Of a stretch of 64,000 bases of DNA, positions 1 to 57,342 are shown piece after piece. The translations under genes were made by a program, and so were the position numbers. Position 1 is the stretch's first letter. Every line of letters starts with the position of its first letter. This stretch comes from Branchiostoma floridae (taxonomy: Eukaryota > Chordata > Leptocardii > Amphioxiformes > Branchiostomatidae), in contig NC_049985.1 in assembly GCF_000003815.2 (NCBI RefSeq), forward strand, positions 9,629,715-9,693,714. Direction: 5' to 3'. Below the pieces are notes generated by a model. It worked only from the letters and a program-made list of their open reading frames with translations. It ran no database searches and was not told the origin of the DNA.

Positions 1-3000
1 CAAAAATATACATGTGTGAAAGTTTTCAAGCCCAAAAATACCTCTCAGTCTCAAGCTGCAACTCCCCAGGATAAGCCAGACGCTTCAGGACAGGAGAAAC
101 CATGGCTGGGCAGGACCATGCAGATTGGGCCTGGCATTATTGGGGCCCTTGCAGCAGGTAATTCATCCACACCACCAGAACAAAATATTCCTTCAAAAGC
201 CACTGTACTGAAGTTGTTGCCAGCTGCTAACCCAAATGCACCCAAAGTTTATGTCCCAGTTTCTTCTACGTTAGAAAGATTGGAAAAAGGGGCAGAAGCT
301 CTGCCTAAGTTCACACCACCCAAGTCAGCAGCACAACAAGGTGTACCCTCAGTTGCTGCAACAGTTCAACAGTCAGCCCCAGCACATACATCATCACATG
401 GCAATACCCCAACAGCAACCGCCATTAGTGTCGCATCAAGTACAAAGCCTCCACAGGTCAGCACAAAACCAGGGCATCCCAGAAAGATACCAGTGGTCAC
501 TGTTCCACAGTATCCACAAAGTCAGCTTATTCTTATTGAACAGAAAACAACCAACCCTTCCCCTGGTCCTGGAAAACAGACACAGCAGATCGTGCATTCT
601 CCTAAACTTGTTGAAATAATCTCCACTTGCAACTGGGACAGTGCCAGAAACCTTATTCTTAAGATGATAGCTCAACAAAGTCAGAGTCTCACTCTGCCTC
701 GTGTTTTCCAAGTTGCTGACTTCTTTGTTGAGGTTATGGGCCCAAGTCAGGAGAGAAGGATCTACAATCTTCCTGCGAATCTTCTTCAGACTTTGCCTCC
801 AAGAATACAGAGTGCGAGAGTGAAGATTTGGAAGCAAGCCCCATTGAAGGCTGGTAAACCCATAATTATAGTCCCACCTCCAACACCCCAGGCTGAAGTA
901 AAAGCGACACCCAATCCAGATGATGCTGTACAAAACCAAGCTGTTCCAATGATGGGACAGGCTTCAGAGGCAGACCAGCAGGCCGATGCTGCACAAAAGG
1001 AAGTGCCCACTGCTAAAAACATACAAGTGAAATTGACTGCAGAACAGGCAAAACAAAAACTCAGTAAGTCAACAGCTGTGAGTAAAGAGGCAAAGCTTAG
1101 CACCCTACAAGAAGATGTTCCTGATGTACCTTCAGAGGGGGATGTGTCAGCTGTTGGTAATGTTTTGGATAAGAGTCCGACATCAAACAGTAACAGTCAA
1201 CCCCCAACCCCTGAAAAATCAGAAATCTCGACAGTTGAAAGTGAAATAGAATGTTCAGCACCAGGGAGAGATGACGTGGATGTCTCTGGTGCTGAAAGTT
1301 CTGTTGATACACCCAATACAGCTACAGGTCCAACAGCATCTTCTAAAACTGTACCTGATAAGGCATCTGCATCTTCAGAAGTACAAGGAGCACTTTCAGA
1401 TGACATGGCAACACCAGCCAGATCTTTAGGTACTCCTTTGATTCCAGAGAAATCATCAGGAGAAAGAGGGGAATCAGAAACATTAACACATGATGAAAGT
1501 GAAGGTGCAAAAGAGGAAGTCATGGCAACAGAAGGAGCAGACAAATGTGAAAGGCAAGAGGCAGCCCAGTCATCAGGTAGCTACCATTCAGATGACACTC
1601 CAACATCAACCAAAATTGTGACGACAACTGCAGTTGCAAACCATGATGAAGGAAAATCTGTGTCCACCAAACCAGTAACCCCAACCAGGCTGTCAATATC
1701 ATCTGACTCTGCATTTCATGTTCCCAGCACAAAAAGTGAAGGAAAACTGGCCTCTTTATTGTCTGATGATGTAAAGGAAAAACAATCACTCTCAAAGGAA
1801 GCAATTGCAGAGGACAAAGAACTAAAGCAACCCATGGACGAGAACACCACTGAGAACAATGCCTCTTTGGAAACCACTGAGGAAGGAAATATCCTATCAG
1901 ACATTGATGCAACTCTACAGAAGCAATCCCAAAGTCAAGTAGAAATGAAATCTTTGGACCCGCCAGAAAATCTTGCTTCTAGTCCCATTGGAGATGCTGA
2001 TGATGTTGCAAGGGAGACTGAGGCAGGTGAAGCAAAACTTGACACACAAGAAAGGGAAGAGGATACTGAAGACAGTAAAAGTGCAGTAGTACAAGAGAAG
2101 TTACCTTGTATCCAGCAGAAAGATGTGACTGAAGGTGTGTCTGTAGATTCTGGAGACAAAGAACAGGAATCTGCCAGCCAGACAGGCCATAACAAAGATG
2201 CAGACAGCATAGTGGACAATGATTTGGACCATAACCCAAGTACAACAGTGACTAGACAAACGGACAGTTCTCAAGAGAACCAGTCAGCTAAGGTGTTGAC
2301 ATCAGGTACATTCATTCCTGAAAACCCTCTGGACAGTCTCATCACAAGGGTTGCTGCCTCAATAGCATCAGCAGAAAAGGCAGGTAATGTTGATCCTGCC
2401 AAAAGAGTAACCTCGACTGGTACATTTGTTCCTGAGAATCCACTTCTTGAAGCTGATGAGTCAGAGTCATCTGAAGAAAGTGACGATGGCACCTCATCCA
2501 GTGACAGTTCCTCCAGGAAAGGAGACTTGTCAAGTGAAGAAGATTCTGCTGAAGCTGTAGATGAGTCTCCTGAAACTCCTGTAGATTCAACATCAGTAGA
2601 GGAATCCAAGGAAGTTTCAGAGCCAAAGGTTGATACTGCTGATGACAAGGCACTGGGCACTGCTGATGACAAGGCAATAGATCAGTCAGATAATAGAATA
2701 ATGGAAATGGTTCCAAAGGAAAGCAGTAAGGAGAGCGAAGACTCCACGGGTGGCAGTCATGCTGCTGAAAAGCCTGAGAAAACTGAATCCCCTAAGAAGA
2801 TTGCCACATCAGGGATATTTGTGCCAACTGTTGCCACTGATGAGCAAAATCAATGGCTGGAAAACCAAGCTACACACACAAGTACAGACCAACATCATGA
2901 GACTATCCCTAAAGAGCAAAACAAAGTCAAAGTCAAAGAAGGTGAAGAAGCCTTGTCAAACGATCAAGGTGAAAATGGTGAAGATAGTCAGGATGAAGTT

Positions 3001-6000
3001 TTAGTTGCCAGCTCAGAAGAAGACAATGTAGATGTTGATGGGCTTCAAGCTCCTTCTTCAGTTCAAAAACGGAAAGCGGACACTGATCTTGTGGACATAG
3101 TCGATGACGATGAAGAAGACGACACTCCTGCAGCAGTGAAACTTCGCTTGAGCATTGCAGCAAGTGGTGAAGTGATAAATCCACAGTGTTCTGTGCACAG
3201 TCTGAAGGCAAAGAAAAAGAGAAAGTCAGTTATGGAAGAATTTGAACCAGATGATGTTGAGTTCATTGAAAAGGGAAGAGAGGAACTGATGGCTGAAGCA
3301 GCAGAGGCAAAAAAAAGTAAGTCCTAATTGTTTTGTTTTTTAAAAAGAATTTTCATGGATAGATATGGGCATATAATAGCTTTGTATTATAGTCTTTGAA
3401 AGTTAAAAAGATTGCCAGCATTTGTCATGATCAATCATCAAACTCTGTTATTGAGGTTCTTGAGACCAGTTGAATATAAGGTGTCTTTGTATTGTCTTTG
3501 AAGGTTAAGAATATTGTAAATTTGTAAGCATATATCACGATTGATCATAGAGCTGAGTTTTGGGGATTGAGGTGGAAATCTTCTGCAATAATATCCCATA
3601 AGTCTTGGTACACATTATAACACATTTTGATACATGTCCGTTTGGAACAGCCCTACTGGACAGAAGGCTTGGGGTCAGCCGACTGCTACATATCTCCAAT
3701 GAGAGGAGAAGGAGAAAAGAGATTAAGGATCTGTTCGGTAACTTAAAAGCCCTGCTGGGGATCCCGAGGGAAGATGACAGGGTTGCTAATATCCATGTTC
3801 TTAGAAAGGTATATATGTTTTCAAAAGTATCCTTCACTTTTATTTATAAGTTTTAAAAGCATTTGTTTTGACATGTAACATTGTGGCACTGCTCTGCATT
3901 TCTAATACATTTTCTGCATTATACTAAGTTAACATTGTCCAGAATAATAGAGGTAACATACCAAAAATACATTGTTCATAACTGCATTGTTCCTACGGTT
4001 TTAAATGTCCCACAGAGCAAAGAAGTGATTGACAAGTTGAAAAGGGATGAAAATCGGCTGACGGATGTCAAACTACATCTACTTTCTCAGCGGGAGAAGC
4101 TCATCAAGAGAATAGCAAGCAGCCCACAATCAAGTAAGTATACCTGCTTCTTTTTAGAGACAAATTGATGAGAATAAATATCTCTACTATTGTAATATTG
4201 TATTCATATGTATGACCTGACAAACAATGGCACATCTTGCATTGATTTTACTATGAAAGTTCCGTAATACTTTCCAACAAGACATTGTTCTCACTGGTCT
4301 TCTTTTCAATGGGTTTTCATTTGAAATGTGCAAATTTCACCTTTGCCACCACAGCTGTTGTCTTAAGCTATTGGTTCCATGGAGAAAGGATGGTTTGTGC
4401 CAGAAATTGATATATTAGCTGAATCTACTTTCGATAGCATTGCGGATTCCCCTTTATCATCCTACTTTCTGTGTTTTGCTCCACAGTGCATAGTGAAGCA
4501 GAGCTGCATAACAAGTTCATGCTACCCTCAGAGGAACCTGGCTTCTTTGATGACAAATCAATGAGTTGTGATATAGGAGGCACAAAGACTGACTCAGAGA
4601 GCAAATATGACAGCAGGTCTGAAAGAACAGAACGACCTCCAAAAATCACCTTGCCTCAGTTTAGTCAGATTGCTTCCATCTCGAAAAGAACAGACAGACC
4701 CCCAAGAGTCGCTGAGCCTCAATTCAGTCCGATTGCCTCCAGCTCCAAAAGAAAAGAAAGCCCTCCAAAACTTAGCCAGAATCAGTCAGATTCGTTGCAC
4801 GTGATTCCTGATGCCTCACAAGAAGAATCATCTGTACTGCAACAGGAGTTTCTCAAACAGTTGGATAGACTTAAAAAAGGGGAAGAGCTACCAGAGCCGG
4901 AAGTAGAGACAGAGGACAAAATGATGAAGACAGCTGTGAAAGATACAGCACACCCGGAGATGGAGATAGACACCCCCAGAGCAAAACCTGTGGAAAAGGA
5001 AACACAGGACACAAATAAGCGGAAACTTAATGAAGAAGATGGTACCAAACGAACAGATGCACAGGGCGGGAGACTAAGAAAGAAGGCCAGAAAGAGTACT
5101 TTTAGGAAGACCAATGTTAACAAGAGGACCATTACTCCACAGCAACTGAGTAACCTGGAACAGACTCACCCAAGCAGGTCAGTTATATATCTTTGGTGTT
5201 TTCTGTTTAGAGATGATAAGGTCAGTTTTACAGTTTTTCTGTATTGTACAGAATGTGACAATAGTGCTTTGAAAAAGCAAAAGAGTTGATATAAAAGTGT
5301 GAAACATCAACCATTTTAGACCATTGACGTTTGTTAGTGACTTAATGGGATTCAACCATTTCTGCAGGAACAACGATACACCTAGCCCTGGTAAGGACAT
5401 TGCAAAGTCACAGGATCTCCCTGATTCTCACGTTAAGACTGCTAGCAGTAAGGAAGACAATTCACCTGCCCCGGACTCAAGCAGGCCCAGCAAGAGTTCA
5501 GCTGAAGGAACCTCATCGCCAGGTACAATGTCAAATTCAGTTGTTGCCTTCGTGTTGGTATTACCTGTTGCTGTCTTTTTTGTTGTTGTTGAAGTTTATC
5601 CTTTTTTTTTTGTTCGAATTTCTGCTGTTAATGCTTTTGAAAATCCCATAATCTTTGTTGACTAACATCCAGCCACATAACTAAGTTTCATGCTAACACT
5701 GTGATAACAGCAAACAATAAACTTGCAAGTTGTTGTCCTCTTCTTTAGGAATTCAGACCTTCAAAATCCAGGGTGGACTTGTGAAGAGCCTGACAACCCT
5801 TGCAGCAGCAGGGGCCAAGAAACCTAACATCCTCAGGACCACCCGACCACAGACTCCAACGCAGTCTCAAGAGACAACAGACTCTACTAATATGAAGGGT
5901 ATGAAAATTTGGCATTCTTGGGCAGACAACTAGCTTGTGTGTTGTTTAACATGATAGGTTGGCCAAACACATCATTATCAGGGATAGCACATTATTACCT

Positions 6001-9000
6001 CCATGAAATGTCATGGAATGGAGGTTATATTTTCTGTTATGTGTCTCTGTCTGTGTAGATGATTACTCAAGAACGGCTGGATGGATTGGTTTCATACTTG
6101 TTGTGTTGGTGGGGTGTGATGAAAGCTCGAATCGATGAGATCTTGGGCGCCGTATCTGTCGTTATAATCGATGTAATAATATCAGAAATCACCCCTATAT
6201 TTGAGATATATTGGTACAGGCATCGTGCTGTATGTGTTTGTTAATGGGCTTAGCTGCAAGCAGATAGTGAGGTGACAGCTGTTTGGGGAACCTCCAGTAG
6301 TTCTATTTATGTCTGCTTAGGACTGTTTGAAATATTTGTAACAGTTGGCACAGTAGTTACCTCCATGAAATGTCATGGAGGTTATATTTTCTGTTATGTG
6401 TCTCTGTCTGTGTACAAGATTACTCAAGAACGGCTGGATGGATTGGTTTCATACTTGTTGTGTTGGTGGGCTGTGGTGAAAGCTCAAATCGATGTGATTT
6501 TGGGCGCCGTATCTGTCGTTATAATCGATGTAATAATATCAGAAATCCCCCCTATATCTGCGATATATTGGAACAGGCATCGTGCTTTAAGTGTTTGTTA
6601 ATGGGCTTAGCTCCAAGCAGATAGTGAGGTGATTTGTATGACAGCTGTTTGGGGAACCCCGAGTTTTTTTAATATGATAATTAGTTTTATGTCTGCTTAG
6701 GATATCATGGAGATGTGAAGCGTAAGTATAATTGTAAGAAGTTGATGGTACATTTAACGGTAATGCTTAACAGGTATGGTGATTAAAATGCCATTAGGTC
6801 CTCTCATCTTAGATGGGTTGGGTGTCAGAAGTTTTATGGGCGATACAGATGTTCTGATTTCGTTACGATAAGGGACAGTTGTTAGTTGTCTCTTTCGTAG
6901 CCAATGGTACTTGTTTTTTAGCAGACGGGGTTGGCGCCAAGTATTCATCTTACAGTTGATGTAGGGCTATCAGAGGAAAGTATGCATCTCATTTTTGCAC
7001 CGTGTGAACAGCTGATGTTATGACATATTGGTGGAAAATCAAATCACCATCTGACTAAAGTTGGCCACATCCCTTCTTCTTTCTGAGTTTCTCAACTTCC
7101 TCCCACCACACCGCTCTGAGGCACATAGTCGAACCTCAATAATGCTGACAACCTTAGACAGTTTAAATGCCAAACATCAAGCTTAAGGAACACCACGCTA
7201 CCATATGCCGTCGACCTCTTAAACGCACATTACACAATTAAGTGTCACATTTTAATAATTACTAATCAGATGGACATCCTCTGTGTCATTAAATAGATAC
7301 ACCACTACTTTCCCATAACATTTATAACCATTACTCTCAAATACAACCGACTATAAACATACATACCATCCACAAAAAAGCAATAAATATTTCATGGAGG
7401 TATGAGGTCCCCGAACTCTAGTTAATATATGAATACATGTACAGTTAAACCTGTCTATAGCGGCCACTCAAGGGACTGGAGAAATATGGCCACTATAGAC
7501 AGGTGGCCACTATAGAGAAAATGTTGATCAATTGACCATGAGCAAGCTACACATGATTACAGTTTCTACTAATCTTTCTCACCAAGTAACATTGTCTTGA
7601 TCGGTAAATTCACCGACAAAGACTTGCACTTGAATGCCCAAGGCATGCATACCTTCTGCTACCGCCAAAATGACCCTGTCAGGAACTCCAAATCCTTGCA
7701 AACTACAATTTCAAACACGGTGCAGGGTGACATAAGGCTGCAGTATGGTTGCAATAGGCAGTGTTTCTGTATCAAGGGGACCTAAAATCGTGTGGCCGTG
7801 GCCGCGTTGGACAGGTGGCCGCTAAGCCTATTTCTTAATCATTACAAATCCAAGGGACCGACAAAAAGTGGCCACTATGGCCAGGTGGTCGCTATGCAAA
7901 GGTGGCCGCTAATACAGGTTTGACTGTACAAGGGTGCTTTGGTGGAAAATTTGCTGTACCGGTAGTATGCAAAATTGTAAACTGTCTCCCTGCATGTACA
8001 AGATTTCTCCCAGAATCTTTGATATCCATTATTTTCTTGGTTTGAAAACTATGCAAGTTACTTAGAAAGCTGCTGCGGTTTTCATTTGTCCCAATACCAC
8101 AAGGCTAGAGATTTCTAACTGCAGTATGCTTATACTGTCCTGTTTACTCCACAGGTGGCAGTGTTACTACCAGTACCAGCTGTGTAAAGATGAGTGCCAG
8201 TGGGATAGAGATAGTCCCAGCAGGTGCTCCCAAGGCTGCCACCATCACAAACGTGCCCATCCTCCAGCTCTCCAGCAATGCTCCCCGGGGACAGCCCATC
8301 TTCCTGGAGAACTGTGACTTCCTCCCTGCTGGTGGCGTCATCGCGGTACCCATCCAGGGGGCCTCCAGCTCCACAACACCTGCCCAGGGTGTGGCACATC
8401 CCATCACAACAGCGGGGCAAGTTCACCTGACAAGCACTAAGACCATTTCAGATCTAGTGCCAGCAATGAGTACAGTCGGAAATGCTGGGTTTAAACAGGC
8501 AATAAAAGTGGTATCCGTTGCTTCATCCCCTATACTGAGTAGCAGTTCAGTGGCCTCTCAGAAGGAACCAGCAACTTCCAACACGGCCATTAAATTTATT
8601 CAAGTTGGTAGCAGCAAAGGTATAGGGCAAGCAATGAGGTTCAGTGTTCTTGACAAAAAAACTAGCCTGGCTACACCTGTGGCAATGGTATCTTCTGTGA
8701 CATCTACCACCGCGGTTACTTCCGTCTCCCCATCTGCGACAAAGTCTATCCCAGCAATCACAATGAAACCACTTTCAGTAAAAGAATGCCAAGTGATGAA
8801 GAGCCCACCACGGGTAGTCACTTTGCCAGTGGGCACCGTGTTCAGTAGCAAAGTCCAGGGACAGGTACATGTACCACGTACAGGGCCGATCAAACTGGCT
8901 CCTGGTCCAGCTCCAGCCAAACTGGCCCCAGCTCCAGCCAAACTGGCTCCCGCTCCAGCCAAACTGGCTCCCGCCCCAGCCAAACTTGCCCCCGCCCCAG

Positions 9001-9524
9001 CCAAAATTGCCCCCGCCCCAACCAAAATTGCCCCCGCCCCAACCAAAATTGCCCCAGCCAAACCAGCCCCAGCGCCTAAGGAGGACGTGACCCCAGTGAA
9101 AGAAGATCTTTCCCGATGGACGACGTTACAAATGGAACAAGATGATGAGTCAGGATTTCTGACAGCGAAAATGAAGCTGAAGGGGGCTGGGATGCCCAGG
9201 ACAAGAAATGGGCCCAGAGCAAGTCCAACAGCATGTCTGGAGGGAGCAACAAGTGGAGTAGTGTCAGAATGCAAAAAGCCCAACGCTGGGACCCAGCACT
9301 TGTATAGTGGTACACTCTCCCCAACAGCAGTATTACAGAAAATAGATGGACGCAAAAATGTGGATACAACAGTAGAGTCTGAGGATTCATCCAACAGTAG
9401 TGCATCAAAAGCAACAGAAGCAGACCAGTTGCAAACTGGTGAAAAAGGAGATAGCAAGTCCACGGGTACCCACTCAGCTGCCAAAAGTGACGTAACAGAA
9501 CAAGAGGAAGTCAGCACTGCATAA
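1..9524 (+). CDS. MGA: MGA-like MAX dimerisation protein, 3' part (partial at left edge)
   Basis: Seven exons join in frame: 1-3316, 3651-3808, 4016-4133, 4487-5177, 5368-5522, 5749-5898, 8155-9524 (stop). They give 1985 residues, with the reading frame open through the left edge. All introns are GT-AG and phases match (1,0,1,2,1,1). Exon 1 is mostly disordered (Ser/Thr/Glu/Asp/Pro rich), apart from a structured block at residues about 201-282. Exons 2-3 encode a bHLH domain whose basic region is NERRRRKEIKDLF, closest to that of MGA. Long disordered tails follow, as in vertebrate MGA, where the bHLH lies several hundred residues from the C-terminus. In the family, MGA pairs with MAX, binds E-boxes and recruits the non-canonical PRC1.6 repressor in the nucleus. 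The T-box that defines MGA would lie upstream of position 1 and is not visible, so the name rests on the bHLH and the architecture. Another large bHLH protein is a less likely alternative. Confidence 0.82.
604..846 (+). other. Structured conserved-looking block in MGA exon 1
   Basis: Residues about 201-282 stand out from the low-complexity protein around them. They have a helical, mixed hydrophobic/charged pattern containing CNWDSARNLIL, LPRVFQVADFF and LPPRIQSARVKIWK. This may be the MGA-specific domain catalogued as DUF4801 (MGA_dom), which lies between the T-box and the bHLH in vertebrates. That assignment is from memory of the family layout and not from an alignment. Confidence 0.4.
3651..4133 (+). 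other. MGA: bHLH domain of MGA on two exons
   Basis: Exon 3651-3808 encodes the basic region and helix 1: a leader RRLGVSRLLHIS, then NERRRRKEIKDLFGNLKALLG. Exon 4016-4133 encodes helix 2 and a leucine-spaced extension, from SKEVIDKLKRDENRLTDV to REKLIKRI. The intron (3809-4015) is phase 0 and falls in the loop/helix 2 junction. The E-R-R-R arrangement of the basic region is expected to contact CACGTG-type E-boxes. The acceptor at 3650 has a weak pyrimidine tract but is the only nearby AG that keeps the phase from exon 1. Confidence 0.85.
4621..4809 (+). repeat. Three 63-nt coding repeats in MGA exon 4
   Basis: Three tandem 63-nt units start at about 4621, 4684 and 4747. Each encodes a 21-residue unit beginning RTERPP, RTDRPP and RKESPP, the first two followed by a hydrophobic IAS-type ending. 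Divergence between units suggests an old in-frame expansion in disordered protein. Confidence 0.7.
5995..6702 (+). repeat. Two direct copies of a ~340-bp repeat, offset 362 bp
   Basis: Copy A (5995 to about 6322) and copy B (6357 to about 6702) lie in the last MGA intron and are highly similar over nearly their whole length. Each starts TTACCTCCATGAAATGTCATGG, which is itself nearly palindromic, continues with a TGTGTCTCTGTCTGTGTA tract and ACTCAAGAACGGCTGGATGG, and ends near GTCTGCTTAGGA. The strong match suggests recent duplication. The family theme recurs, more diverged, at about 36.8 kb and 60.3 kb. Confidence 0.85.
7442..7926. mobile_element. pogo/Tc1-like MITE with TA target duplication
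   Basis: A 485-bp element in the last MGA intron is bounded by terminal inverted repeats: CAGTTAAACCTGTCTATAGC on the left and, read inward from the right, CAGTCAAACCTGTATTAGCG. TA dinucleotides flank both ends (7440-7441 and 7927-7928). Sub-terminal copies of GTGGCC(A/G)CTAT occur in both arms. It has no transposase ORF. CAG-starting ends with a TA duplication fit the pogo/Tc1-mariner superfamily. Confidence 0.85.
8890..9078 (+). repeat. 21-nt coding minisatellite in MGA last exon
   Basis: Seven or eight tandem copies of a 21-nt unit encode LAPAPAK, drifting to IAPAPTK at the 3' end. The gradient from CTG-type to ATT-type codons across the array shows that copies spread by slippage or unequal exchange. 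Copy number is probably polymorphic and may be mis-assembled. Confidence 0.85.
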
Positions 9525-12783: not shown

Positions 12784-15700
12784 CTACATGCGGACGGCAT
12801 CAGGGGGACAGCTCTCCAACTGAACCTGGATATTTTTCAGCTCGTTCTGATTTGTTGTTATGGGCTTAGGGCGCCCGATGTAAGTTTGGTCCATCTTTAG
12901 GAAGGATCCAGGCAGGTCGGGCATGTAGTAATCATATTCAGGATCAGGGGTCTTGTCCACAAACACCTGGTCGTGAGGAGTCTTTCTACCATCTATATCT
13001 AATGACGGCGTCCTAGGGAGTTGTCTCCTGGAGTGATTGGAGCTGACGTCACCGTTGCTAGGAGATTTAGCGTCCTCAGTGGCGCCAGATATGACGTGCC
13101 CATTCGGGGTCACCACGTCATCGAGATCTGCGCTTTTTCGCAAATCCTCAAACACGGTTTCCCCGACTGGACCAATGGAAGTTCTGTACTGATCCCGTTC
13201 GGAATCGTCGAAGTGAAAGAGTTTCTGTGTCATGGTCATGGCGTACGCCGACGACCCTTCACTGCTGAACTGGGACCTACTATCCTCAGACTGTGCGGCG
13301 TAGTGCGCAAGTCTTCGCCCCGTTTTCGGCTTCTTGTCGTTCAAACCAAGATGTTCATACAGTGAGTGCTCGTTACCAAGTTTTCGTAAGTCCAGAGATT
13401 TCTGGGGACTCTTCCTGTCAGGTGATGCACTTTTCCTCTGCTCGGACGGGTTGGATATGATTTTCTTGTGTTCAGGTGAAGACTCCCGTCTCTCAACAAC
13501 CTGTGCTACTTCCATACTTTTCTCCGGAGTTTGTCCTTTTTCGCTTACCTTTTTATCAGGTGACTTAGATCCTGGATATTTTGGCAATTGTTCCCGAGAT
13601 GATCTATGAAGCTCTTCCTTACTTGCCTTTGAGGAGGCTTTCCCCAGACTGCCCTGACTGCCCAGCCTATGACTATGACCATGACCCTTCCGTCTCTCGG
13701 AAGGTCCCCGTATTCTTATCTCCTGTGAGCTGCGCATGCCGTCCGTTGAAGACGGTACATCTGAGGGACTGTGTACTTGGGCTGCAAAATTTTCAGTTGT
13801 TCTTGACTTCTTCACGGATCCTTTCGACCTGTGCTTACTACTACGTTTAGAATGGCGGGTCGTTATCGCTCTGTCCAGTGAGTTGTACGGCGAGGGCTGG
13901 TACACAAACTTCTCTACTCTGTTTTTCCGTCTTGATATGTTTGGCGTCAGAGATTTCTTCTCACTTTTTTCTCGCCTCAGTTTTCTCGTCGCATGTGCTA
14001 ACTGTGGATCTGACGCTGTGACGGCAGCGTGTGACAACCCCGCGGCTGGCATCTCCTGGTCGGCATAAAACGCGGGCCGCGGCGCGACGGGTAGTTTTCT
14101 ACCTTGTGGCTTTGGCATTGTAGGCAGCTGCCTTTTGTTGGGCGAGTTCCTTGGGCTTTTGGAGTCTCTAACAGGGCTTCTGGATTTCCTCTTTTCTTTG
14201 TTAGAATGTGTGGGGCTGTGATTTTCAAATCGTGGGTCCAGGATGTACACATGTGCGTTATTGTTGGAGTAGTTTTCTGGCCCAGGTGGCGCCTGTGTGA
14301 ATGTTGTCTCCTGTACACTGTAGGGCTGCTGGATCGGATGGAAGTAGGCGTTGCCCGGCACGTTGCTAGGTAACGCTCCGGTGTATGGGCTGGGAACGAC
14401 GGGTTCCATCGGTGGGCCAGCCATGCTGTAAAAATGATAAATACAAAATAATTAAAACATGATTAATTATTTTGCAAGAAATGAAAATTGGTACAAGCCT
14501 AAATAGCCATCATGTCTATAAGAGCATAAGTCAGTAAGATTTATTGTTTCTCGTAGGTACAATAAACTCGTCCACTATCGTCAATATTCTAGAGNNNNNN
14601 NNNNNNNNNNNNNNNNNNNNNNNNNNNNNNNNNNNNNNNNNNNNNNNNNNNNNNNNNNNNNNNNNNNNNNNNNNNNNNNNNNNNNNNNNNNNNNNNNNNN
14701 NNNNNNNNNNNNNNNNNNNNNNNNNNNNNNNNNNNNNNNNNNNNNNNNNNNNNNNNNNNNNNNNNNNNNNNNNNNNNNNNNNNNNNNNNNNNNNNNNNNN
14801 NNNNNNNNNNNNNNNNNNNNNNNNNNNNNNNNNNNNNNNNNNNNNNNNNNNNNNNNNNNNNNNNNNNNNNNNNNNNNNNNNNNNNNNNNNNNNNNNNNNN
14901 NNNNNNNNNNNNNNNNNNNNNNNNNNNNNNNNNNNNNNNNNNNNNNNNNNNNNNNNNNNNNNNNNNNNNNNNNNNNNNNNNNNNNNNNNNNNNNNNNNNN
15001 NNNNNNNNNNNNNNNNNNNNNNNNNNNNNNNNNNNNNNNNNNNNNNNNNNNNNNNNNNNNNNNNNNNNNNNNNNNNNNNNNNNNNNNNNNNNNNNNNNNN
15101 NNNNNNNNNNNNNNNNNNNNNNNNNNNNNNNNNNNNNNNNNNNNNNNNNNNNNNNNNNNNNNNNNNNNNNNNNNNNCTAGGTAAGATGTAGTCCTATTGC
15201 CTTTTATTTAGCTCGTAAGGGCAGTGGGCTGTTATCCACTGTGTCTAGGTACTAGTAATATGATACAGCATTGGAAGGCGAATTCCAACCTGCTCTCATT
15301 CCACCGCCTTTTACCTCCAACACCCAAGTCATGTACATAGAGCGAGGAAAGTCGTGAAACGTGCCTTGCCCAAGGGCACAACGTCATTGGCATGTCAGGG
15401 AATTCGAACCCAGTACCTCTGGGTTCTGGGCCAAACATCCTAATCATTAGGCCAACACGACGCCACGCTTCCCGTACATTCTAGAGGCTACACTAGCCTA
15501 CACTTGCCTGAAGTCGTACAGCTGCTCACAGTGCTCCAGTCCGTGCTGTCTCATGAGTTTGAGCTGCTCCTGCGCCAGCTGGTACGGCGTGGGGAACTGT
15601 CCCTGCACGGTGGGCGAGGACGGACGTTCCTCCAGGGTCGTGAATCTGGGCAGCAGGAAACAGTGATACAGCTCATCAAAACAAGATCATATTTTTTCTT

Positions 15701-18700
15701 TAAAAAACGATATTTACATTATCTGTCCTAGAAAAGAAGCATTTCCTCACTAGCACCATCGTGACAAAAATGATGACTTTTTCTCAGACTTTGTTTAGTT
15801 TTTCCCCATCTTCAGCAATAATTATCATATCTTTAACCTAATAACTAACATCTACTTCTACTTGCAGATACTATGTAAGTACAACAGGTATTAGAAATCA
15901 TGGTGATTTTAACATCCATAACATCATATTAAATTTAGATTCAACCGAGTTGCTTGTTGGACATAAGTGCTGTAGTGTCCTTACCTTTGCGGGGTCTCTG
16001 GTGCAGATGCGCTGTAGATGTGGTTCGCGTATCCAGTAGGTACCTTCCCATTCTGCTTGGGCTTCCGTCTGGACGTGTGAGACAGATCCGACATGGACAT
16101 GTCCGACAGGTGCTGCTCACGCCTGTCTCTGCCGCTACGCTGGCTGCGCTGACTCTGGGCGCCGATAGAGGTCGCTTCTATGTGGTTGAGACTGAGGCTG
16201 CGCGGACTCTGGGTTCCGCCGCCCTCCACCTCGCTCTGGGCACTGGCCGCGTAGGCTGCAGTGCGCTTACGCCGTCGGCACATGCGTGTGCAGATGACGG
16301 CGATGATGCTGGGTGAAAAAATGGTGTATATCATATATCAGAGCAGTGGTTTGGGCGTAAGTCTTGAGTATGCCTGCGGTGTTAACACTGATAGGGAAAC
16401 AGGCAAGGACCTTTCAACTCATTTGAAAGGTCCTTGCCTGTTCGCTCACTGGTGACGTATAGTTAGAACGTCATTCTCCAAACTTCCATGACACCATTTC
16501 AGAAGATATAGAATCTCCTTTTTTTGTAATCTATTTTTTTATTTATTTATTCATATTTTATTTAAGAGGGTCCTTTACAAGGCCGACACCTCCAGAGAAC
16601 AGTAAATAACAAATCATTTTTAGTTGTTATTGACTATAGTCAAGTTTTTTTTACATAAAACAGCACATTCCCTCTATGTTGAGTATATTGTGTACCTGCC
16701 GATCACCACCAGCGCGCACAGCACGATGCCGGCCACAGTCACGGGGTTCTGGAAGATCTCCAGCTTGAAGAACTTCTCCACCTTCTGCCACCACGTCAGG
16801 GGTTCTTCCGGCGCCGCTGTGGTGGTCACCGCCGTGGTGCTGGGCACCAGCTCTGCAACATCAACATTCGGCAGGTTTTATTTCTCGTGACATGGACAAA
16901 GATACGAGCGGAAGTAAATCTCCGATTTTTGTCCAGTTGTAGAGATTGAATTGCCGTTAAATACTGTTTACATTGTTGTCTAAACTTCATAAACTTGATG
17001 ACTAGGACCTTTGAACACTGAGCCTACGTTTTACACTTTTGTCAATAACTACAGAGAACAACGAATTAAAGAAATCTGAATCACAGAATTGGACAATGAC
17101 AAATTACTAATCCTTAATTTGAATAAGTTGATCTAATTGTAAAGATCCTCTAACCATGTAAAAGTTGTGTGATAATCTGGCGCCAAATTGAGGATAGGCA
17201 GAAATGAAGTAAATGATAAAAATACTTCTATAACTACTGCATTTTGAGTTCTTTCTGTTACGTTAATAATGTTAAAACATTTTATGAGCTACTAGAAAAT
17301 TGCACGCCCTTCAATGCCTTACGTAGGCAACTTTAGCAATCAGTGTTCTAAGCGTAGTCCTTGGAGGTGCGGACACTACTTGTACTTTGTGTCCAAGCTC
17401 TTTATTTTACGACGAACGGATCTAGGCCGTGTGCCCACGGGAGTGCTGCGGGACAAACGGGCTGATTGAGTGACATACTGTGACTGACAAGCGTTGATTT
17501 GATTTAGGTTAATTTGGGACACGCTCTGAAACCTTATCTCAGAGTATCTGCGATATAACAGGCGTGTCTGTTAACACTTCAAGAGCTTACAAATCCCTGC
17601 TGGATCAAACCACACAGACTTCAACATTACAGTTTTAATGCCTTGTGTATAGTGTGGGTATCGGAGGCATAATTCTACGGCGCGAGGTCGAATGCAATGT
17701 CACACGTGCAACGTCTAGAATGTCAACTTTATCCTATTCTAGACATTCTCCACTCATTTCGTGATGACTTAGCTTCAGTAGAAAACGATCTGTGTTTATT
17801 CGTCGCGTTCACGCATGTCATATCGGTTTCATTTCTTTTGGGTAAGGAAAGATTCTAGAAAGATTTTAAGACGGGGTAAATGTCTGATTCAATGGACAAG
17901 AAGACCACCAGCATCAACCAATTACGAGCGTAAGATGCCCTACCGGGATATTTGATGGGCCCACCGTGTCTTATGTAATCAGAGATTATGTCCGAACATT
18001 AATCGTTAAGCGTGGCACCTCTCTTATGACAAGTGTTTACGGATAGCCGCATTACGTTGATATGTGTCTAAAGTAGACACGGGCGTTTGTTTTTTCGCGC
18101 TCTGGGTTTTTGTTTGGAGGTGGCATCCTTCCCAACCGAAATACGTCACATCTGTCATGGCTGATAAAACTCCCGCTAAAAAACAACAAATGAACTCGTC
18201 AAGAAACAGTGCCAAGCACATCCACTATCTCTTGTGGGACGAGGTTGAACTTTAAAGAATGTGTAACGCGGCGATTTCATGATATCAGCGTTTCGAATAA
18301 CTACAAAACTGTCACACACTAATATCCTCAAACTCTTGGGAAAGCAAAAACACATTGATGATGGTAAACTAAGCTTTCTGCGATAATATCACTTGATCCA
18401 GTGTAGTTAGTTTGGCCTTACGTCTTATCAAAGACGCTGAGTCGTGTGGTCTTAAGCGGTTCTACAAGACAGCTGTGTTGGATTCTTGTATCATTCTACG
18501 CCTTAAAGACCGTTATACTTTCCTGTCACCGGTTATCTAATGACTACAGGGCTGTTGCACTGGGACCTCCAATACATGTACATGAGACGCATTACTCCGA
18601 TGCCAATGTCCTACAATCCCACGATATGGACATCTTGTACTGCCCAATAAACAACTCCTCAAGACACTCTGGGCTGAAGTCGCCTCGCGCTCGACATTCT

Positions 18701-21700
18701 GAAAACACGATTCCCAACCCACGGCGGGAAACCTGACCCTGAAAACGGCTTCCGTTGTGGAATGTGATACTTACGGAATGATGAATATGAGGCCTGGAAG
18801 CCGCGGGTGCTGTAGGACTGCAGGTCCGGCTGGACTCGGAACTCGATGAACACACGACTCCCTGATGACGTCAGAGTCGTGGGCGGGTCGGACCCCGTGC
18901 TGAATAACAGCGGCGACGTCGCCTCCCCACCGTCACGGATCTAAAACAGAAGTGTCATTAAGTTGTTAGTGTAGAAAAGATGCCATACATAATCACAAGA
19001 AAAGAAAGGTATAGTCGCATTTCCCCTGACCTTGCGTGCAGTATTGTCCTCGGGGAAGACAGCGAAACGTACCAACTGAATTAATACATCCTTCTGAAGG
19101 AAATGGTTGTAAATTTCTTCTTAAGTCGGAAAAGTGGTCTATTCTTGGGGCTTGTCAACGTTTATCTCTCAGTTAGCGTCCAATTTGATATACAAGTAAC
19201 AAAGTGTCAAATCAAGTATTCTTGCGTTTCCGGGCCATCTACCGCACTCTCAACTCAGTGTTGCAAGAGTTTAAAACAAGTTTCAACGCAAAAGAAATAA
19301 ATGTTGGAGCAAATATATGCCCACGGTTTAATAGGTCCCGAACCACGACAGTCTCGCCACTGTTTGAAGTCCGAATCTGGACACAGCATATGGATCCGGT
19401 CGGAAGACATTACAACTTTCCCTGGAGATAAACACGTCTGGTCATGGCGATATTTTGGCGCGAAACGAGCGTTGGACGACATTTGGCGGGAGGGTACCGC
19501 TGTGATCGTTATGTTCTGAGGGAGAAGAGCGGACGGACAGGGCGGCATCTAGATATGCCATGTGGATCCGGTTGGTGAGATTCTCCGTCGGTGGCGGAGA
19601 TAACAAGCGAGGCATGCCAGGAAAGACGACATTGCCAACTCGAGAAACTAAACCTGACAAACGTGCCTCACAACTCCAGTTTCACTACCACGGAAGAGAA
19701 AGTATTGTGCCAGGGTTAAATACATAGAATAAGGTCGACGCCAAGAATAACTGCGAGATGTCCTGTGAATGATGATATTCGGGTAGCGTCACGTTCGTTT
19801 TTGCACGGGACACCGAGGAATTCTCAAAACACACAGACGATAGATCACTGCTATCACATCAGCGCGCAGGGCGGACTGGAGGAAGCATAATTGCACGGCA
19901 CCATCCAGATGCGGCTGCCTGTTACTGGTACCTCCCGGGTTGAAAACTGGACACAATTCTTAGGCCAGGGAAATATAACAAACATCGGAAAGGTTGACTT
20001 AACAGAAACATCGAGAACCTACACAGGGAACTGCTATCTTACAAATATCAAAATATGCAGATGCTTGTATGTACACAACGATGTCTGTTTATCAACATAC
20101 GTACCTACACAAAGTACATCATACCCAGAATTGTCAAAGGCCGACTGAATCGCTGAAGGGCAGAATGGGCTAGGTGTTTGGTCATACGATATCTGACTAC
20201 TGTATATTCTCTGAAACTGAAAGACCCACCTTTAGCCGTTCCTGTGTCTTGTCCAAATCGAACACCTCAAACTCCAGACGTATCTTGTAATCCTCCAGGA
20301 CCCAAATCAGCCAAGTGACTACCCCGGCGCACGCGCCGTACGGGGGTCTCGTCACGCCCCCTTGCGGTGCCCGCAGGGTACAGCCACAGGCGCAGTTGTC
20401 AGTGGCGACAGGTCGGACCGTCAGAGGCGGGAGGGTGCGGAGGTCTTCTGGAGGAACACACAGTCGGTTATCGTTCAGAAAAACTTATTTGGCTTCAAAA
20501 TATTCCATTTGAAAGCCAGCCCAGTGAACAGTCATAAGAAGTCTTATGTTGACACACCGTGGGCAAAGATACACAATTTTCTCGGACACCACAGTCAAAG
20601 GAATAAAGTTGGTAGCCTCTACCAGGCTCCACGGATCGGTGGTCTAATTGCAGAAACTGGTCAAATAGAGTCTATAGTGCGCTAGGGAGGTCAGCCGGCC
20701 AGAGGAGTACGTTTCCTATCCGACGGTCTGTAAGTCAGTAAAGATGGATCAGATTCTAATCCATCTATTATCAAATTAAAAAGTAAATTGCATCTTTATT
20801 ATCTATCATGAAGTTGATGTAAAACGACGATAACAGAGAAGAACACATTACCTGCCGGACAGGGCGGCAGTCCCTGACATGAACCGGACTCCAACGTTTC
20901 GCCTTCGCAGAAAGCGCCCCCGTTCGACGGAGGCGGGTTATTGCACACACGGAACCTCTGAATGCGGCCCTCCCCACATGTCACGGGACAGCTACTCCAG
21001 GGCTCCCACGTCCCCCAGTTACCATCTATAGCTGGAGCTGGAGGTGGGGGGGAAAGAGTTCGTTTTTTATAGATCAAGGCTGTCAAGTTAGCAAGTTAAC
21101 AAACGTAAGCACAGGTAGTTTGACCCAAGTTACAGGTGAACCCTGTGTTTTGGCGCGCGGATACAGAAAACCGCTCATACTATAGTCTCCAAGCAGGTGT
21201 TCTCGAGTGTAGGAAGGACGTCATATTCTGCCCTTGGGAAGTTTAGCTTGTAGCTTGTACCATGTGTTTTTCCGATGTGTCATTTTTCTCTCAACACATT
21301 TGTGTTTCTACCTTCAGTAGGTGTGATCACAGTGCGCCTACATGACTTGTGAAGGAGGCAATGGTGGGTCAGCGGTCTGTTCGTATCTGCGTCTGTGGTC
21401 AATATGTCTGTATGTGCGCGTGCACTGGCAAAAACAAACATCTGTACGTGCTGAATGCAAAACAAACCATAAGTTCTTTGGCCGCGGGACCAACGGCAAC
21501 GGTGGACAGATGAACTATTGTCACAACACAACAATTCGTCACAAACTGCTTTGTCATCTCACGGTCTCTATTGCGAGTATTCCGCCTATTCAGACTATGC
21601 ACAAATCTACGACAAAGTTGACGTTGTGACAACAAACGGCTGACAGTGACAATCAGTCAGTTCTGTTGACAAAATAAAACATAGGAATGAAGTCCACCGT

Positions 21701-21837: not shown

Positions 21838-21874
<37 letters not shown>

Positions 21875-30800: not shown

Positions 30801-33257
30801 TTGTTGTGTGAAAGCATATAACCTCCTTGGTGAAAGGATGTGTTATGACGTTAACGTAACATCCATTGAACATTGAGTCATTTTGAAAAGTTTTGTAGCA
30901 CATGATTAGGTTAAAGGCTTGTATGCAGCTAGCTCATTACCGCTTAAGCCTGGCTTAAGGGAGAACAAATTTAATATCTAGCCAAGAGGTGGCCTTTCTG
31001 AGCCGAATGGCAGGGGGGTTAGCGGACACATTAGAGTGTAAATAAGGAGATTACAGCTCTTGAAAGGGGCTATTACAACATCATTCCTCACATACCCATA
31101 CCCACGTGTACGTACATAAATCGGTAATACGGTTGGGCCTTCATAGGATTCATTTTGTGCAAGGGCTTATGTAAGAATGACAGAAAAATTCCAAAATGCG
31201 ATGTCATTTTGCTAGCGAGGAAAGAGTAAGTGTTTTTTTTTTTTTCAAAAAAAGTGGGGAAATAGCAATTTCCCCTCAAACATCTGCTTGGACACCAATG
31301 TAGTGTCTACAATGTCAAAACCTACTAACTATACGTTTGAGGAAGTAAACGTTGCGCACACTGATTCCTTACACTCTGATGAGTGATAGACACGGAATGA
31401 ACACGAGAAGTGTTTAGAGTTTTCCTTACCTGAGTACTGAGAAGGTAGACATAAGGTTGCCTGTTCGGTGACGGCTCCTCTCCGGGCAATGCTGACGTAC
31501 TTGAAACAGTAGACCGGGAAACTGGGGTCAAACTCGCTGCACGTGAACTGCACAAACGTCTTCCCCGGACGGATCCGCTGCTCTGTGACGTACTCCAACT
31601 GATCGGAGGCCTGTCCCGCTAGTCCCGCCCCCTGGCGGTACAGACGGACCCTGTCGTGGCCGTGACAGACAGGTGTGTAGAACGACACATCCACGACATA
31701 CACGCAAGGGAAAATTGCATGCTTCTCGGTGGTTAGTGCGTAGTTTTCACTCCACTTCACCGGAAAATCCTGACTGGAGGCGATCAAAGAATCGTTAAAC
31801 TCTGACCTGAGCTCCACTCGGTACAGCCCGGCCTGGTCTAAAGATTCGCAGCTGACTGTTACATGTGTCTCCTGTGATTGTATATCCAGAGTCTGAGTCG
31901 TCACAATCGAAGGTTTGACACTCTGGTCCACCGTGTCATTTGTACCTAAATATTTCACAACAAAGTTGGTGCGGAATCTTCTGGGCTGTGAGCTGCACAC
32001 CTCACCCTCCGTCCTGACTCCCACCTGCACCTCTCCCGTCATCGCCTCGTGAGAGTTCGGCACAGAGATGGAGAAGTCCTGCCACACCACGTCCATGATC
32101 TCACTCTCCACCAAGATGGGCCCGCCTTCCTCCAGGAGAAGTTTGAAGAGAAACCCGCCGGCGTGGTCGAAAATCGCGCAACTGAAGTTCATATGGCCGT
32201 CATGTATCCCGACAGGCACCGGGGCAACCCTGGTAACACTGGAGTTCAGAATGTCATAAACCTGCGGACAGAGAACGATGTGTTATAGGCAACGTCAAGT
32301 CATGTAAAGCTATCTAAACCTCTGATTTCGGCTATATGTTAAACCAAGGAGGCTATAGTCTAAAACCTCCTTGGATACCCCTATAATACACTCGACGACT
32401 TTGATTTTGATGACCCCAACAAAAGAGGGTTGCGCATATTTTTCACCTGAAATCTTCTCTATTCAGAAAACTTCGAACATTTTTGGCCGATCTCTAATAA
32501 TCACCCGATGATGAAGAGAACACCGGGTGTATCACTACCGAAAATTTCAATTAGGGCCCCTCATATTCGTAGGCCGTTAATCTCCATGCTATGTGGGTGA
32601 GGTATTATGAATTACTAAGAAATAAGGATATGACTGCCCAAATATTCAAAGTAAATATTGTCTTCCAAGCAAACTCACCTCTATTACTGCATTTTCAAGT
32701 TCGGCCTGAGTGGGAATGGAATATTCCACGTCCACCTCTGTTGACATGGCAACGTGCGTGTCCGGAGCCAGGACGTTGAAGCGGTACTCAGACGTGACTA
32801 GGGCAGGAAAAAAGACTAAATGTCAGTTACAAAACATCTTTTTATACCAGATGTACACACATGAAAAACAGGAACACGGCGCAGAGACGTTGCATTGTAA
32901 CGCGAAAGTATCACAATGATATTGATTAATACAAGCAACAACAAGAACGCTTATAATTGTAAAATGCAGACCCAGAATAAAACGTTATATCTGCAGACCA
33001 AGTATTTGCGTTTGCTTGCCTCTAACGGTTTTACCACTGTCGACTACGACACATATGTTGTGCATGAACCTTATCGGCATCCTTCACAACGTGTTCTTTC
33101 CCGGCCCTTTTCATTACAATGGTCTAGTTCTATCCCGTAGTCCAAGAAGTCCTTGATCCTCACCTTGTGCAAAAATCAATGACGTGATGAAGTAGAAATA
33201 GTTGCCATAGGAACTGCCAAACGACGTTTGTCTCGCCCGCCGCCATATTGCACCCAT
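12784..33257 (-). CDS. THSD1: THSD1-like transmembrane protein with TSP1 and CUB domains
   Basis: Ten coding exons on the minus strand: 33257-33164, 32797-32679, 32261-31430, 21031-20852, 20447-20230, 18940-18775, 16852-16696, 16308-15985, 15645-15508, 14425-12784. The total is 3870 nt, or 1289 residues, in frame throughout. Order: signal peptide (YFYFITSLIFA), two THSD1-type extracellular regions (about 32-348), TSP1 (349-408), CUB (409-535), stalk, membrane helix (574-595), basic stop CRRRKR, long cytoplasmic tail. Homology to vertebrate THSD1 is strongest in the cytoplasmic YQLAQEQLKLMRQHGL block (718-742), like YRLAQQQLKEMKKKGL in human, and in a C-terminal DLPGSF like human DLPGYF. Human THSD1 is an endothelial protein linked to focal adhesions. 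The tail has proline-rich SH3-type sites (RKLPVAPRP). The CUB domain is unexpected. The exon at 21031 could start at 21037 instead, both in phase. The start codon is the one before the hydrophobic leader; an in-frame upstream ATG may exist in a spliced 5' exon. Confidence 0.85.
14595..15176. other. Assembly gap (582 Ns)
   Basis: Unknown sequence within THSD1 intron 9. The flanking exons join in phase, so the gap need not hide coding sequence. Confidence 0.98.
15235..15464 (-). mobile_element. tRNA-derived SINE
   Basis: Read on the minus strand from 15464, it begins GGCGTCGTGTTGGCCTAATG, an A-box-like tRNA head, followed by a B box (GGGTTCGAATTCC) at about 15405-15415. It continues with the widely shared SINE motif TGCCCTTGGGCAAGGCACG near 15362-15380. 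The 3' end is unclear, about 15235. It lies in the THSD1 intron next to the assembly gap, in the same orientation as the gene. Confidence 0.82.
15502..15507 (-). other. THSD1: GC-AG donor site of THSD1 intron 9
   Basis: The exon ending TACGACTTCAG (15508) is followed by GCAAGT instead of GTAAGT. Phase 2 here matches the acceptor before 14425 exactly, so the exon joins the last exon across the gap with no exon missing. Apart from the C, the donor matches the consensus strongly, as is usual for GC-AG introns. Confidence 0.8.
16398..16442. repeat. Perfect 20-bp hairpin in a THSD1 intron
   Basis: AACAGGCAAGGACCTTTCAA (16398-16417), a 5-base loop, then its exact complement (16423-16442). It lies in the intron between the membrane exon and exon 8, about 90 bp upstream of the exon 8 acceptor in transcript order. 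Confidence 0.9.
16540..16615. repeat. T-rich tract and repeat fragment
   Basis: An ATTT-rich tract followed by AAGAGGGTCCTTTACAAGG looks like the end of a degraded interspersed element inside the THSD1 intron. Confidence 0.3.
16853..18774. other. THSD1 intron 6
   Basis: A 1.9-kb intron between the CUB and membrane exons. I see no credible ORF, RNA gene or clear transposon ends. Confidence 0.5.
18775..20447 (-). other. THSD1: THSD1 exons 5-6: CUB domain
   Basis: Exon 20447-20230 encodes the first half (CACGCTLRAPQGGVTRPPYG, then WLIWVLEDYKIRLEFEVFDL). Exon 18940-18775 encodes the second half (IRDGGEATSPLL, TSSGSRVFIEF, GFQASYS). These are the hallmarks of a CUB domain: CGxTL start, aromatic FDL strand, IRDG and a GFxAxYS end. 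The internal intron is phase 0 and the flanking introns are phase 1. I know of no CUB domain in human THSD1. Confidence 0.88.
18941..20229. other. THSD1 intron within the CUB domain
   Basis: A 1.3-kb phase-0 intron splitting the CUB domain. Only short random ORFs are seen. Confidence 0.5.
20852..21031 (-). other. THSD1: THSD1 exon 4: thrombospondin type 1 repeat
   Basis: One exon encodes a complete TSP1 repeat: the Trp ladder WGTWEPW, then SSCPVTCGEG, RVCNNPPPSNGG and six cysteines ending GLPPCP. Introns on both sides are phase 1, so the domain is a symmetric 1-1 module. Confidence 0.93.
21839..21871. repeat. (TA)n microsatellite
   Basis: About 16 uninterrupted TA units. Confidence 0.95.
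30226..30320. repeat. Long hairpin / foldback element
   Basis: The centre TTTTTACGTAACAA / TTGTTACGTAAAAA is a perfect palindrome. The arms extend outward with the imperfect pair CAACCACCGACAAGGAGTC and its counterpart GAATCCTTGTTGGTCG, giving a stem of about 40 bp with few mismatches. It may be a very short MITE. Confidence 0.8.
30690..30775 (+). mobile_element. Possible tRNA-derived SINE head
   Basis: GGTTCGAAGCC near 30751-30761 matches a pol III B box, and TGGCAGCGCTCAGCCAGG about 50 bp before it resembles an A-box region. No foldable tRNA was confirmed, so this is weak. Confidence 0.3.
31430..32261 (-). other. THSD1: THSD1 exon 3: main extracellular region
   Basis: An 832-nt exon encoding residues about 72-348, preceded by CCGCAG and followed by GTAAGG. 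The cysteine-containing beta-rich sequence near its end (VVDVSFYTPVC, FVQFTCSEF, VYCFKYVSIAR) resembles the region just before the TSP1 repeat in vertebrate THSD1. Several N-x-S/T sites are present. Confidence 0.85.
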
Positions 33258-55033: not shown

Positions 55034-56502
<1,469 letters not shown>

Positions 56503-57342
56503 CTTGATTTTGTTGGCGCCTCTTCTTTCCTCAGCAAACAGGTCAAGGTGCCGCACAGTGTCTTTCGTAAGACAGTCTGAGAGGTTCTTCCAAGCAGTTT
56601 GGAACCCTCAGTTTCTTCTGTACGTCTCTGGTTGTCTCAACGTGTCCCAAACTCGTCAGAGATCACAGGAAAACTGGTGAAAATCGACGAATATTTTGTC
56701 CCGTCCACGCAAATGTTATCTGACCTTTGCCCCTACACCGCAACAAAAGTGAAAATACTGAATAAATTTATCCTTTAGCGCAACTTTCTGAGTCACTCTG
56801 CTAGGCTACCTAAATCATCCACGAAAAAAATTAACAAATATATTTGCTGTTTTACTAAATGGGAATTTGTTTTGTATCATTGCATCTGTCATATAAAATT
56901 GTGGTAAACAGGCCATAGGTCCTAAGTCTTTAGCTGCGTTTGGTTGCGGTGCTAAAATCTGCCAAATCAAACAAAATGCACAAAAAATGTGGATTTACTG
57001 TATTGTCAGTCATTTCTAGGAAAAAACAACGACATGCAGCGCTTAAAGTGGCTAGGAGTGTATCCTTAAAATGATCTAAACAGCAACACTAACGTGTTAG
57101 CTGTAACATAACGTTAACATTGACAGGTGGCCTATTAATTCCTACTTTACGGAAAACTCACAGTGGGGAAAACTTATTCCGTAACACCAGTAAAGTACCA
57201 TCTGCTTTAACGTTAGTCCTCTTTGTTGTTTTCCTTTGTGCTTTATCAGATACGATCCTTATCCCGGCGTTTTCGTTTTGCCCTCAGACTTTTCTTGCCT
57301 AAGACTTTCTCTTCGCCCTTTTACGCATGCGTCAACTGCAAC
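56503..57342. promoter_or_regulatory. Bidirectional promoter region of ZCCHC10 and SLC2A8
   Basis: About 840 bp separate the two divergent start codons, so both promoters and 5' UTRs must lie here unless distant 5' exons exist. No clear TATA box is seen. The strand-specific starts cannot be placed from sequence alone. Confidence 0.6.

Follow-up and report, generated by a model that had tools for sequence, protein, structure and literature searches.

A putative lancelet THSD1 homologue with a CUB domain encoded between the TSP1 repeat and the membrane helix

The window analysed here is a stretch of 64,000 nucleotides of the lancelet Branchiostoma floridae (contig C7, 9629715-9693714, in a genome of 513,431,437 bases and 431 contigs), and it contains on its minus strand a single predicted gene for a homologue of the membrane protein THSD1, which acts in blood-vessel adhesion in vertebrates (Table 1). 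Joined at their splice borders, the exons give a single open frame of 1259 residues that runs from 32797 to 12784, exon 1 not included. The exon borders are GT-AG and their phases are compatible, with the sole exception of the GC donor of exon 9. A run of 582 N (14595-15176) lies between exon 9 and the last coding exon, and since the GC donor and this run share one intron, a small exon may be missing there. The intron between exon 3 and the TSP1 exon is 10.4 kb long and harbours a run of AT dinucleotides (21840-21871) upstream of the latter exon.

The start of the gene is a weak part of the model. A first scan for signal-peptide exons returned eight rows, none of which was judged credible, and a looser scan returned nine, including the putative exon 1 of Table 1, which was picked because it is near and yields the 1289 residues given by the initial annotation of this DNA. 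That length is reproduced exactly with this exon and the TSP1 acceptor at 21031, while the acceptor at 21037 gives 1291 residues; the TSP1, CUB (CUBa, CUBb) and transmembrane (TM) exons also lie where the initial annotation had put them; all four are on the minus strand, are bounded by GT-AG and agree in phase.

Table 1. Predicted lancelet THSD1 gene and its exons, in positions of the window.
Feature	Position	Strand	Remarks
Predicted lancelet THSD1 gene	33.3-12.8 kb	-	single gene
Exon 1 (putative): start codon and moderately hydrophobic leader	33164..33257	-	weak prediction, without homology
Exon 2: start of THSD1_N	32679..32797	-	phase 1 in, 0 out
Exon 3: remainder of THSD1_N, THSD1_D2 (sub-threshold), THSD1_D3	31430..32261	-	phase 0 in, 1 out
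Exon 4: TSP1 repeat	20852..21037	-	phase 1-1; Pfam TSP_1; alternative acceptor 21031
Exon 5 (CUBa): first part of CUB	20230..20447	-	phase 1 in, 0 out
Exon 6 (CUBb): second part of CUB	18775..18940	-	phase 0 in, 1 out
Exon 7: Thr-rich stalk, most of the membrane helix	16696..16852	-	phase 1 in; aligns with the TM of the provisional human reference
Exon 8: end of the membrane helix, basic cytoplasmic part	15985..16308	-	
Exon 9: conserved cytoplasmic block YQLAQEQLKLMRQHGL	15508..15645	-	GC donor
Last coding exon: C-terminal MPDLPGSF	12784..14425	-	

The identity of the gene was addressed with a Pfam hmmscan of the 1259-residue model, in which seven families match at E 1 or below. THSD1_N (40.2 bits against a cut-off of 27, E 2.9e-10), THSD1_D3, the third Ig-like domain (33.6 bits against 27, E 3.4e-8), and TSP_1 (44.3 bits against 21.6, E 2e-11, one stretch located after D3) exceed their cut-offs, while TSP1_spondin and TSP1_ADAMTS give sub-threshold matches only. 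The region before TSP1, which had been described as specific to THSD1, is thereby recognised in its THSD1_N and THSD1_D3 parts; conversely, the second Ig-like domain, THSD1_D2, is found at the expected place with a score (17.2 bits, E 0.0053) that stays below the cut-off of 27. In the lancelet genome, THSD1_D3 matched two places at E 1 or below, namely the window gene (5.6e-7) and one on contig C5 that is under the cut-off (E 0.53), so the window gene is the only place over the cut-off in a search that would miss a second THSD1 gene with an intron-split or very divergent D3. One of 14 control genomes, that of Methanocaldococcus jannaschii, has a below-cut-off D3 match, taken as chance. The corresponding genome search with THSD1_N returned zero matches and failed to detect even the window gene, presumably because an intron splits the domain, and is uninformative on a second THSD1.

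Comparison with human THSD1 relied on a provisional human reference stretch of 564 residues. A one-sequence search aligned it to the lancelet protein from HVALS through TSP1 (E 6e-24), with 91 of 369 columns identical (25%), and in a second block (E 1e-4) that spans the TM together with the conserved cytoplasmic residues. The membrane helix was recognised by eye as a hydrophobic stretch across exons 7 and 8, which aligned with the helix of the provisional human reference, and the cytoplasmic block, identical to that of the same reference at 11 of 24 positions, is indeed THSD1-like. The C-terminal DLPGSF, which had been proposed as a further mark of THSD1, is present, but its DLPG motif is weak evidence alone, as shuffling the last exon 2000 times yields 100 sequences that match the motif of the provisional human reference at least as well. 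In Pfam, the tail piece matches only Rubella_E2 (E 0.072), a sub-threshold chance match. Taken together, THSD1_N and THSD1_D3 over their cut-offs, the single D3 place and the human alignment support the view, already advanced in the initial annotation, that the window gene is a predicted lancelet homologue of THSD1 in which a CUB domain separates TSP1 from the membrane helix.

Synteny does not contribute to this assignment. The neighbours of human THSD1 are VPS36, CKAP2 and NEK3, and a Pfam scan of five neighbouring pieces in the window gave a family over the cut-off in two of them, one being a zinc knuckle and the other a sugar transporter, hence no synteny support. The zinc-knuckle exon (56164-56316, minus strand; zf-CCHC_3, E 9.4e-19), which we take to be ZCCHC10-like, has a Ser-rich stretch nearby (55052-55216), and pieces of the sugar transporter gene with coding signal extend over 57322-63125 on the plus strand (Sugar_tr, E 4.2e-31 in one 160-residue piece). 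At the other end of the window, open frames with coding signal on the plus strand (2455-9253) are acidic and rich in Ser and Pro; for three pieces of them, Pfam gave no match at E 0.1 or below.

The CUB domain (PF00431) is detected in the 1259-residue model between TSP1 and the helix with 33.1 bits, over the Pfam cut-off of 21.4 (E 7.4e-8), as the initial annotation had anticipated, and when the 130-residue piece between TSP1 and the stalk is searched separately, CUB is the only match (37.1 bits, E 4.3e-9). A phmmer search of solved structures returned 20 sequences up to E 1, of which we take the first 17 to be CUB-bearing proteins and the last three, at E 0.17 or more, not to be. Cubilin, a chain with several CUBs, ranks first (E 1.9e-13), and since the lowest E-values sum over the several CUBs of a chain, this figure is to be read together with those of single cubilin domains, which are at E 0.027 or worse among the alignments shown. 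The best single-domain match among these alignments is the enteropeptidase heavy chain (E 0.0015); procollagen C-endopeptidase enhancer matches in one stretch (E 0.00013), and neuropilin-2 and ASFP are also among the matches.

Moreover, CUBa and CUBb each carry a coding signal: their coding scores in the used frame were reached by none of 5000 windows drawn from the introns, each window taken in the best of its three frames. The codon score was derived from the remaining exons of the gene; its background model came from the same introns, which favours the separation. Open frames of exon length are not uncommon within the introns (313 of 5000 windows for CUBa and 918 of 5000 for CUBb), and in the TSP1 exon, whose homology marks it as coding, a wrong frame outscores the used one (0.143 vs 0.095).

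The domain departs from the usual CUB pattern in its cysteines. CUB domains usually contain two disulfides formed by four canonical cysteines, an arrangement that is not obligatory. In an alignment with seven lancelet CUBs, the THSD1 CUB keeps the W and the DG turn, while of the canonical cysteines C1 is present, C2 is displaced by four residues, and C3 and C4 are absent. The domain had been called full, which holds for its extent (positions 5-110 of the 110 of the profile) and not for its cysteines, as the second canonical pair is absent. One of the seven aligned CUBs (L006, 86.2 bits in the genome CUB search) also is without C3 and C4; hence the four-cysteine set does not define the CUB fold. 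At the places of the calcium site, where the calcium-binding subset has the trio Glu, Asp, Asp, the alignment reads by eye Asp, Glu, Gln, and a further Asp follows two residues later. From these substitutions and the state of the cysteines, the THSD1 CUB is likely to have at most one canonical disulfide, and calcium binding by it appears doubtful.

The CUB is encoded by two exons of 384 nt in total with intron phases 1-0-1, located 404 intron bases from the TSP1 exon on one side and 1922 from the TM exon on the other. The TSP1 exon is of phase 1-1, the CUB exons are 1-0 and 0-1, and the TM exon is entered in phase 1. Skipping either exon 5 or exon 6 singly leads to a stop, whereas skipping both keeps the frame and yields a vertebrate-like order of TSP1, stalk and TM with a linker of about 40 residues and no stop. 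By its phases and by the outcome of these skips, the CUB is a symmetrical module of class 1-1, and modules of this class are described in PMC8001218 as the substrate of exon shuffling in animals. In terms of mechanism, the cassette would have been placed in the intron between TSP1 and TM, or removed from there in vertebrates, leaving the reading frame unaffected either way, and joint skipping of exons 5 and 6 could produce CUB-containing and CUB-less forms in cells.

The same property raises the alternative that the CUB exons, though real, are used in an alternative isoform only, and that the main product is vertebrate-like, with TSP1 leading directly to the stalk and TM. The in-frame joint skip would allow it, and symmetrical modules are suited to exon skipping according to PMC8001218; yet the two exons are bounded by GT-AG, show coding signal and bear no mark of being optional, and we regard this explanation as unlikely. 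Very improbable is a chimeric model, in which the CUB exons would derive from a nested or neighbouring gene or would be a pair of pseudo-exons: the length of the intron between exon 3 and TSP1 leaves room for such an error, but the CUB exons are on the same strand and in order, contain no stop, fit the TSP1 and TM exons exactly with their phases, and are flanked by short introns, and none of the matches listed for the lancelet genome is a close duplicate of them.

CUB domains are abundant in this genome: the genome-wide Pfam search scored 150 matches out of 969 candidates, all 150 over the cut-off, and thus gives a count of at least 150. The THSD1 CUB exons are not among these 150 scored matches, the lowest of which has 53.1 bits, which indicates that the THSD1 CUB is a divergent one. 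Used as a query against its own genome, it finds 81 places up to E 1, two of which are its own exons; the other 79 are 27-46% identical in the aligned parts (best E 1.1e-5, with 35% identity). For all the abundance of potential donors, a recent copying of the CUB from another lancelet CUB gene is hardly credible, because none of these listed matches is a close copy.

Four CUB regions picked from the genome CUB searches (L031 to L034) were read for their exon structure. Read by eye, L031, L032 and L034, which were selected for a CUB exon that shares its first or last residue position with the THSD1 CUB exons, contain a two-exon CUB with phases 1-0-1, whose internal intron likewise precedes (I/V)xDG; the first two of these loci are near-duplicates and hence not independent. 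In L033, the CUB pieces have different edges. The THSD1 CUB belongs to a class of two-exon CUB modules that is present elsewhere in the lancelet genome. The genome also holds a dense array of CUB exons (G000:C16:7844807-7889993), which we presume to be cubilin.

On this combined evidence, we consider it highly probable that the gene is the lancelet THSD1 and that the CUB, a two-exon module with symmetrical 1-1 phases, sits in the intron between TSP1 and TM. The predicted product would be a type I membrane protein composed of Ig-like domains, TSP1, CUB, stalk, helix and the cytoplasmic tail of THSD1. Its TSP1 keeps WxxWxxC and CxxTCG, which we take as signatures for C-mannose and O-fucose, respectively. 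The CUB would add a membrane-proximal binding surface for the matrix, a soluble ligand or a partner in the same membrane, and the tail of the receptor would work at cell-matrix adhesions as in human THSD1. The lancelet protein is probably an adhesion receptor that carries an additional binding module close to the membrane.

The ligands of the THSD1 ectodomain are, to our knowledge, little characterised, and a CUB-bearing homologue represents an evolutionary handle on this part of the protein. Human THSD1 is reported to span the membrane once and to interact with talin and integrin, and its loss leads to cerebral haemorrhage in zebrafish and mice (PMC8689057); it binds FAK and supports focal adhesions (PMC10889294). 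In human disease, THSD1 has been associated with intracranial aneurysm and nonimmune hydrops fetalis (PMC12189160); on ectodomain binding, the same review names CD36. No description of a lancelet THSD1 or of a THSD1 with a CUB was found in the open-licence literature, and public gene models may well show it.

A CUB-bearing THSD1 might be ancestral in chordates or older, in which case the loss of the cassette in vertebrates would have turned a ligand-capturing receptor into the endothelial THSD1, and lancelets, which are not known to have a true endothelium, may still splice both forms; we put this forward as a tentative scenario that is rather less probable than not. As the cassette is a symmetrical pair of exons, gain or loss is decidable from a few outgroup genomes and RNA-seq.

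Among known systems, vertebrate THSD1 (Tmtsp) shares with the lancelet protein THSD1_N, THSD1_D3, a single TSP1, one membrane helix and the block Y-LAQ-QLK-M---GL, all in the same order. It differs in the CUB, which in the lancelet lies between TSP1 and the membrane helix, and the gap between the two aligned blocks is about 25 residues in the provisional human reference vs about 170 in lancelet. That vertebrate THSD1 is without CUB is based on this provisional human sequence and on passages of the review PMC12189160, in which THSD1 consists of a TSP1 repeat, the only part named extracellularly, followed by a helix and an intracellular domain. With cubilin and other two-exon lancelet CUBs, the module has in common the CUB profile, cubilin being first among the solved structures, and with the three selected lancelet loci the internal phase 0 intron and the phase 1 borders; it differs from the other lancelet CUBs in its low identity to the 79 listed places and in the missing second cysteine pair, a feature that L006 shares. 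ADAMTS13 likewise has TSP1 repeats followed by CUB, but is a secreted protease with two CUBs and without THSD1 domains or membrane helix; its similarity to the lancelet THSD1 is a resemblance only, in the succession of TSP1 and CUB.
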